Assembly (NCBI GenBank): GCA_012520195.1 | Contig: JAAYOS010000028.1 | Location: 1-34,682, forward strand | Reading direction: 5' to 3' | DNA: 34,682 nucleotides | Source of the DNA: Clostridiales bacterium | GTDB lineage: Bacteria; Bacillota; Clostridia; Oscillospirales; JAAYOS01 | Shown here: in pieces, positions 28,427 to 30,474 of the stretch | Numbering within the stretch: position 1 is the stretch's first letter | Layout of the letters: the number at the start of each line of letters is the position of its first letter | Made by a program: the position numbers and the translations under genes | The notes under the pieces: generated by a model | Told to the model about the DNA's origin: nothing | The model's input: only the letters and a program-made list of their open reading frames with translations | The model's database searches: none

Positions 28427-30133
28427 CTACCAGAGGTACTTTGACGGGTTTACAGCCTTCCCGTTTACACGGATTTCGAAGTGGACATGCGGTCCGGTAC
28501 TTCTTCCTGTGCTTCCGACACGGGCAATTGCCTCACCTTGGGCGACCTTCTGCCCCACCTTTACAAGGAGCTTAGAGCAATGTCCATAGAGGGTCTGAAC
28601 ACCTTTTCCGTGATTGATGATGACACAGTATCCGTATGCTCCGTACCACCCTGCTCTTGTGACAGTTCCTCCGTCAGACGCAACAATCAGCGATCCGCTT
28701 CTTCCTGCAAAGTCGATGCCAGTATGGTAATCGTATTTTCCTCTGAATACTCTCCACCCAAATCTTGAAGAAATGGTTCCGTTGAAAGGAACGATGTATG
28801 TTCCTGTGGGAGCTCTTTTTCTTGTACCAACTCTGATAACTTCGGTTACAGGTTCTACCAGAACTTCCTCGCTAACTACCGAGGTGCTCTCTACCATATT
28901 GTCCACGCTGACAATCTCGGTGGTGACCTTCTTAGTACCTTCTACACCCTTAACCTTAGTCTTGTTAACTCCAACAAACAGTGTCTTGTCGTCTACGTAC
29001 TCTGTGTCATAGGGTATCGGTTCCTCGGTCACCCTTGACTTGACCGTCCGAATGGACATTAGCGGGATTTCTTCTCTTACGACCAGAACTTGCCCTACCT
29101 GTAATTTGTCGGGGTTTACATCCGGGTTAAGCGAGGCTAATGCCTTTGTGGATAACCCGTGATTTTTCGCGATTGTCTCAAAAACGTCTCCGGCTTCTAC
29201 CGTATAGAACTCACTGTCGCGTACGTTCGAAGACAGGTTTTTTTTGATTTCGCTAATCGGTCGAATATTTTCAACGCTTGTGTATTTAAGTCTTACATCT
29301 ACATCTCGAACGAATGATACATCTGTGACTGTTTCGTTTTCCTCTGTTTTGCTCAATTCAGACTGTAGAAATGAGTTGAGCACAGTATCGATAGTTTCGC
29401 GATCCTTGTGGGCTCCTATAACCTCTCCGTCAACAGCAACGACATAAGCCTGTTCAATATCGGAGATTTGTGAAAACAGGACCCTCTCAGCTGTCCTCAG
29501 GTCCAACATCTCATTGCGGTTGAACATTTCAATCTTGTACGAAATGTCTGCATCAAGGGAGTAGGGGTACCCAAGTATTCTGCTGGCACTATCTTCTACA
29601 CGATCTACAACCTCAATAAAATCGTTGCGCTTCGCTACAAATCCAATAGGTTCTCCGTCAATGTAGACCTGTAGTCCGACTCCCACAATGGAGCTTGAGA
29701 CGACTGCAAACACTGAGACCGCTAAGAATAAAGTCCCGGCTGCTCGAGGTGCACAGTAGCGCACGATTTTTTGTGATACGGCGTGTCCTGCTAGCCGTAA
29801 AAATCTGCTAAGTCTAATGCGCTTGTCATCTGCGTACTCCAAAAATGCTGTCATAAAGCATACTACAAAAGCGACTGCGAGCAATATTGGGCGGGGCATG
29901 GATTTACGGATTGCGTTACGAGCTATAACAAAATTGCTGTAAATCCTATACAGCGCCTGCTTTGCAAGTGCTGTACGCCTAGCCGCAGAACGGGATTGAG
30001 TCAACCCGCTTATTATCTTTTTCTTATCTCTTGTGTAAGAGTCTAATTTATCTGTATATGCCGGAATGTCGATGATAGGTCTAACCGATAGCTTGCCAAC
30101 TAGCGAGCTATAGGTTATAATCTCTTCGGACAC
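28427..30133 (-). CDS. membrane-anchored LysM/G5/M23 peptidoglycan endopeptidase
   Basis: 568 residues. A basic N-terminal region (1-80) precedes two membrane segments (about 82-100 and 133-155) joined by an Arg/Lys-rich loop. Next come a YabE/YgiM-like region, one LysM domain (about 309-353) with YTVEAGDVFETIAK, a G5 domain (about 360-437), and a C-terminal M23 domain with zinc ligands H470-x3-D474 (HTGID), H518 and H549-x-H551 (HVHFE). It should cut cross-bridges in peptidoglycan outside the membrane. GTG 30133 is preferred: AAGGAGG is 8 bases upstream, whereas the in-frame ATG at 30184 has no SD. A strong promoter and WalR-like boxes precede it. The two-pass N-terminus is unusual. Confidence 0.92.
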   Translation of the reverse strand: MSEEIITYSSLVGKLSVRPIIDIPAYTDKLDSYTRDKKKIISGLTQSRSAARRTALAKQALYRIYSNFVIARNAIRKSMPRPILLAVAFVVCFMTAFLEYADDKRIRLSRFLRLAGHAVSQKIVRYCAPRAAGTLFLAVSVFAVVSSSIVGVGLQVYIDGEPIGFVAKRNDFIEVVDRVEDSASRILGYPYSLDADISYKIEMFNRNEMLDLRTAERVLFSQISDIEQAYVVAVDGEVIGAHKDRETIDTVLNSFLQSELSKTEENETVTDVSFVRDVDVRLKYTSVENIRPISEIKKNLSSNVRDSEFYTVEAGDVFETIAKNHGLSTKALASLNPDVNPDKLQVGQVLVVREEIPLMSIRTVKSRVTEEPIPYDTEYVDDKTLFVGVNKTKVKGVEGTKKVTTEIVSVDNMVESTSVVSEEVLVEPVTEVIRVGTRKRAPTGTYIVPFNGTISSRFGWRVFRGKYDYHTGIDFAGRSGSLIVASDGGTVTRAGWYGAYGYCVIINHGKGVQTLYGHCSKLLVKVGQKVAQGEAIARVGSTGRSTGPHVHFEIRVNGKAVNPSKYLW

Positions 30134-30188
30134 TGGTTTCGCCTCCTTAGAGCACCAATTCCGAGGTTGATCAATTGGTGTCAATTCG

Positions 30189-30205
30189 GTTACAATTCGG
30201 TAACA
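30189..30205 (-). promoter_or_regulatory. WalR (YycF)-type box just downstream of the M23 promoter
   Basis: Minus strand: TGTTAC-CGAAT-TGTAAC, two direct copies of TGTWAH separated by five bases, the published WalR recognition rule. It covers the predicted transcription start, the position expected for repression. The matching rule is known; the function is inferred. Confidence 0.6.
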
Positions 30206-30211
30206 ATGCTA

Positions 30212-30240
30212 ATACTACCTCAGTTTACTGCATTTGTCAA
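30212..30240 (-). promoter_or_regulatory. promoter of the M23 endopeptidase gene
   Basis: Minus strand: consensus -35 TTGACA (30235-30240), 17-base spacer, -10 TAGTAT (30212-30217). The transcription start would be near 30205, giving a leader of about 70 bases. Confidence 0.8.
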
Positions 30241-30405
30241 GAGATTTGAATCGGTCGATACCCTACCAAATATCGGTATATAATCCCGTCAGATACCTGT
30301 CCTGAAGCCCTGTCTCTATAGTCTTTCTTTATTTTTGCTATGGCTCCGGATGAGTCGTAAGTCTTCTTACACCTTACTAATTTGGGTCGACATTACACGT
30401 TTACT

Positions 30406-30422
30406 GTTACAATAATATTACA
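30406..30422 (-). promoter_or_regulatory. second WalR-type box, far upstream
   Basis: Minus strand: TGTAAT-ATTAT-TGTAAC, again TGTWAH-N5-TGTWAH. It lies about 170 bases upstream of the M23 promoter and near the 3' end of bioY, with extra half-sites around it. Whether it serves a second promoter is unclear. Confidence 0.4.
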
Positions 30423-30474
30423 AAGCTGAGCAAAAATAAGTAACATTCTGTTACACCTTAGTTGCCTCAGCCTA

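Follow-up and report, generated by a model that had tools for sequence, protein, structure and literature searches.

The gene for a LysM-G5-M23 endopeptidase in the window (the whole stretch of DNA analysed, 34,682 nucleotides) is preceded by a box, WalR-like in sequence, which is real and conserved and which we predict to act as an operator of the repressor type where the hydrolase gene starts. Computation revealed two such boxes, a promoter, a conserved promoter–box geometry, an association with particular genes and a co-occurrence with one regulator. On this evidence, the M23 gene is probably repressed by a C39-type regulator, linked to a lipoprotein, that would bind the proximal box on the transcription start. 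Beyond this gene, we tentatively propose that two Wal-like systems coexist in the order, and that the box-marked hydrolase regulon may belong to the lipoprotein-linked one, acting mainly as a repressor on the transcription start.

Boxes, promoter and leader of the M23 gene

The two TGTWAH-N5-TGTWAH boxes and the TTGACA-17-TAGTAT promoter of the original prediction are present exactly as it described them (Table 1). The boxes are the only two exact matches in the 34.7-kb window, compared with a mean of 0.19 in shuffled sequences, none of which held two. Promoters in this work are consensus matches, and they were called mechanically, as were the open reading frames. The proximal box begins 6 nt past the −10 hexamer and is predicted to start at the transcription start, around 30205. 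Reading from 30205 to 30178, the sequence TGTTAC-CGAAT-TGTAAC-CGAAT-TGACAC forms three half-sites spaced 11 bp apart, and the position of the third, weaker one holds TGACAC or TGATAC in G001, G002 and genus g5.

Table 1. Features of the M23 endopeptidase gene and its upstream region (window coordinates).
Feature	Position	Strand	Remarks
LysM-G5-M23 endopeptidase gene	28427-30133	-	LysM, G5 and Peptidase_M23 domains; likely GTG start at 30133
Ribosome-binding site AAGGAGG	30142-30148	-	
Perfect 8-bp inverted repeat CACCAATT-N12-AATTGGTG	30153-30180	-	Leader, immediately upstream of the ribosome-binding site
Third, weaker half-site TGACAC	30178-30183	-	11 bp after the second half-site
Proximal box TGTTACCGAATTGTAAC, TGTTAC-N5-TGTAAC	30189-30205	-	Exact TGTWAH-N5-TGTWAH match
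−10 hexamer TAGTAT	30212-30217	-	17-nt spacer from TTGACA
−35 hexamer TTGACA	30235-30240	-	Consensus match; conserved in orthologues L056-L065
Distal box TGTAATATTATTGTAAC, TGTAAT-N5-TGTAAC	30406-30422	-	Exact TGTWAH-N5-TGTWAH match
Inverted repeat GTAACA-N3-TGTTAC	30440-30454	-	Adjoins the distal box, behind bioY

Translation probably begins at the GTG behind AAGGAGG rather than at the TTG at 30184, because the orthologue from the same genus starts there; this places the proximal box in the 5′ leader, some 56 nt ahead of the GTG. In the encoded protein, the HxxxD and HxH metal-site positions of the M23 domain are invariant in 14 orthologues. The inverted repeat of the leader is partly kept in the sister genome G001. 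A leader hairpin was rejected as a structured element, folding no better than shuffled sequences (z −0.29), and an Rfam search of part of the window and seven related loci gave no match. The distal box lies just behind bioY, 217 bp from the proximal box centre to centre, and the palindrome next to it is limited to the genus, kept in G001 as GTAACAAAATGTTAC. At that spot in G001, bioY is missing.

Conservation and frequency of the box

We compared 30 M23 orthologues from the order, with protein identity down to about 30%. The upstream segment of 21 carries a box, compared with 0.13 expected from shuffles, showing that the box is kept at the M23 promoter in relatives, as the original prediction required. 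Sixteen of the 21 boxes are on the coding strand, and all of these follow a promoter with a 17-nt spacer, from −1 to 11 nt past the −10 hexamer. The placement on the transcription start is kept across families, and the same geometry recurs in genomes of the Oscillospiraceae and Lachnospiraceae. A composite pattern, consisting of a promoter and a box 4–11 nt after the −10, matched 26 times in 391 genomes of the class, compared with a single match of the reversed pattern. The original claim of a WalR-type direct-repeat operator on the predicted transcription start is supported.

Over the genome from which the window comes, the loose TGTWAH-N5-TGTWAH consensus gave 20 matches compared to 24 for the reversed pattern, and is not enriched. 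The genome scan proposed with the original prediction thus failed for the loose consensus and succeeded, in relatives, for the stricter TGTWAC-N5-TGTWAC. This motif had 151 matches against 40 for the reversed control in 59 genomes (own and relatives), a count that may be slightly inflated by sites that match on both strands (TGTTACA-N4-TGTTACA, as in G014, G033 and G055) and may belong to another regulator. It outnumbered the control in 35 genomes and fell below it in 7. Of its sites, 59/71 are outside long open reading frames (control 10/29) and 57/71 lie within 350 bp of a gene start (control 9/29). Allowing one mismatch in the strict motif proved too noisy (33 matches, 53 in the control). 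As the loose motif is unenriched in the own genome, the significance of the boxes rests on their position, the strict motif and conservation.

A lipoprotein-linked regulator co-occurs with the box

The own genome encodes at least 10 full-length OmpR-family regulators, with one further partial match. Four regulators were profiled over the same genomes at a cut-off of E 1e-70, and the C39-type regulator, encoded on contig C39 in the own genome, occurs in 21/21 genomes with the box and in 2/9 of those lacking an exact one (p=1.8e-5), or 10/10 versus 2/8 when counted by family (p=0.0015); this co-occurrence is a correlation over some 18 lineages and depends on the cut-off chosen. The exceptions, G031 and G044, have the C39 regulator and only degenerate boxes near the promoter. 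Within family f2, G010 and G052 hold both the box and the C39 regulator, and G034 holds neither. Two other candidate binders were set aside: the C63 regulator shows no correlation with the box (p=0.39) and the C29 regulator a weak one (p=0.05).

The C39 regulators form a monophyletic clade (support 1.0) separate from WalR. The recognition helix of the C39 regulator, KIVDVNIRRLRMK, differs from that of canonical WalR, which counts against C39 as the reader of the box. The operon is conserved across the order and consists of a beta-propeller lipoprotein, the regulator, a kinase, DUF1385 and prmC. The kinase has Cache, HAMP, HisKA and HATPase domains and no PAS, with Cache_WalK matching at 25 bits, just under the cut-off of 27; the lipoprotein has a Beta-prop match at 8.2e-12 and a lipobox assigned by eye. 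No box was found before the C39 operon, in keeping with the absence of autoregulation reported for walA-walR-walK of C. difficile (PMC9210968). In the own genome, the C39 operon (L423:7169-9890) immediately follows genes that resemble spoIIAB-sigF of sporulation.

Alternative readings of the boxes

Chance matches in AT-rich DNA would be in line with the unenriched loose consensus, a reading that the number of orthologue boxes and the conserved geometry, including the composite pattern, refute and leave with practically no probability. We also regard it as highly improbable that the proximal box activates another promoter further downstream, or loops with the distal site. The distal box and the palindrome are kept in G001, where the boxes are similarly spaced (211 bp), and boxes at 3D/G5 genes lie well upstream of the promoter, as such a mechanism would have it; however, the distal box is conserved only within the genus and absent beyond it, whereas the proximal box persists across families.

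Canonical WalR, encoded on contig C45, has a stronger case as the protein that binds the boxes and represses the M23 gene. The walRK genes anticipated by the original prediction are in the own genome, in an operon of walR, walK, two membrane protein genes, murA and MBL, in which a membership test with the YycH and YycI Pfam models gave no match. The motif fits the WalR consensus, and the recognition helix of this WalR, RTVDVTIRRLREK, is that of S. aureus WalR. YycF is its best NCBIfam match, although its 308.7 bits fall short of the curated cut-off (340). The walR genes of family f42, from another order of the class, carry a box, and in genus g21, which has neither the C39 regulator nor the box, the M23 gene adjoins walR-walK (L336:6455-9997 in G046, and L335 in G025); the motif may therefore be shared by WalR. 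Against this, WalR is found in 8/21 box genomes and 4/9 without an exact box (p=1). No orthologue was found at E 1e-70 in the other 13 box genomes, including ones estimated complete, and the substitutes there, where inspected closely, are nearly all paralogues of 43–49%. The original choice of WalR as the regulator is consistent with the motif type, its position and the presence of walRK, but not with the distribution of the box, and we consider it unlikely. Less likely again is that WalR and the C39 regulator both read the boxes, in competition or under different signals. Both regulators are present in the own genome and in most of its family, WalR-like motifs also occur in families with WalR and without C39 (f6 and f7), and the motif alone cannot separate the two proteins; against such a dual reading, box presence follows one regulator only. 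The C39-type regulator is our preferred reader of the box.

Predicted sign of control and mechanism

For WalR of S. aureus, a site upstream of the −35 is associated with activation, and one between or downstream of the −35 and −10 with repression, in any orientation (PMC10746227). Overproduction of WalR in C. difficile lowers expression of an NlpC/P60 gene that has two boxes about 100 nt before its start codon (PMC9210968). From the S. aureus position rule and the C. difficile case together, we infer that the M23 box represses; the repressor-like position noted in the original prediction agrees with the former. In the mechanism that we infer, from binder and signal to phosphorylation dependence and repression, a phosphorylated OmpR-family response regulator would bind the direct repeats, three half-sites 11 bp apart, over the M23 start. 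The bound protein would block RNA polymerase and so repress the endopeptidase gene. Across the order, this reader would be the response regulator of the C39 lipoprotein–regulator–kinase system rather than canonical WalR, and the M23 gene would belong to a regulon that comprises peptidoglycan hydrolases along with other envelope genes. Mutating the box should thus raise M23 expression.

Relation to known systems

The WalR/YycF regulon of Bacilli (B. subtilis and S. aureus) has the same TGTWAH-N5-TGTWAH direct repeats and controls peptidoglycan hydrolases, and the S. aureus case, in which position decides between activation and repression (PMC10746227), resembles the box studied here. Two things set the present system apart: the box is placed where a hydrolase gene is predicted to start, and in this order its presence does not track canonical WalR. 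The main elongation hydrolases of B. subtilis are under positive control (PMC7299342). In layout and domains, the C39 operon resembles walA-walR-walK of C. difficile, with a beta-propeller lipoprotein, an OmpR-type regulator and a Cache/HAMP/HisKA kinase without PAS (PMC9210968). The C. difficile operon ends in truA2, whereas the C39 operon has DUF1385 and prmC in its place; the presence of truA2 may be happenstance according to the authors, who call the lipoprotein unique to C. difficile (PMC9210968). To date, C. difficile is the only species for which the lipoprotein-linked layout has been described, and none of the papers that we read describes the arrangement reported here. Against the model for MtrA, of the MtrA-MtrB-LpqB system of Actinomycetota, the C39 regulator reaches 212 of the 300 bits that the cut-off requires. 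That system differs from the C39 operon in gene order and lipoprotein domains. It likewise has a regulator, a kinase without PAS and a lipoprotein, and controls the cell wall (PMC9210968, together with general background).

Control of hydrolases by WalR is often described as general to the Bacillota, and in motif searches a match to the box is taken to mean WalR. If, across much of Clostridia, the box is recognised by a different regulator, linked to a lipoprotein, and frequently serves repression, then motif-based regulons would have been credited to the wrong protein. The lipoprotein system would in that case be a wall sensor open to testing far outside C. difficile.

Genes beside the boxes

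The expected clustering at hydrolase genes was confirmed for strict-motif boxes in relatives. The neighbours are mostly envelope genes, with G5, NlpC/P60, SH3, LysM, 3D, Hydrolase_2, M23, CAP, SLH and CdaA among them, and the composite pattern matched at M23/G5, NlpC/P60, Hydrolase_2, S11 (D-Ala-D-Ala carboxypeptidase), MreB and walR genes. Strict boxes in the own genome are also found at mscL and at a SleB-like hydrolase gene, the latter conserved in the sister genome. At many genes the box is in reverse orientation and the −10 hexamer TACAAT falls within it (GTTACAAT). At others, including the 3D/G5 and CdaA genes, it lies upstream of the promoter, and both signs of control are therefore likely.

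In genus g5 (L130, L135 and L137), the box is about 100 bp upstream of cdaA, the gene for a diadenylate cyclase; this could connect wall sensing with c-di-AMP. In family f42 (L440, L441 and L456), the promoter ahead of walR has a box at its start, which suggests autoregulation, contrary to what has been reported for Firmicutes (PMC9210968), and mreB genes in L445, L446 and L457 have the same arrangement. A family of proteins of 96–99 aa has a box at the promoter in at least six genomes (L115:1570-1866, L118, L121, L127, L133, L138 and L158); one member gave no match in a Pfam search, and the family is likely an unstudied member of the regulon. Finally, an identical site, TGTTACAGTTATGTTACA, is shared by L116 (G002) and L113 (G033), which belong to two families, and in G002 it precedes the gene for an exported-looking protein of 466 aa; such shared sites probably reflect another regulator or horizontal transfer.
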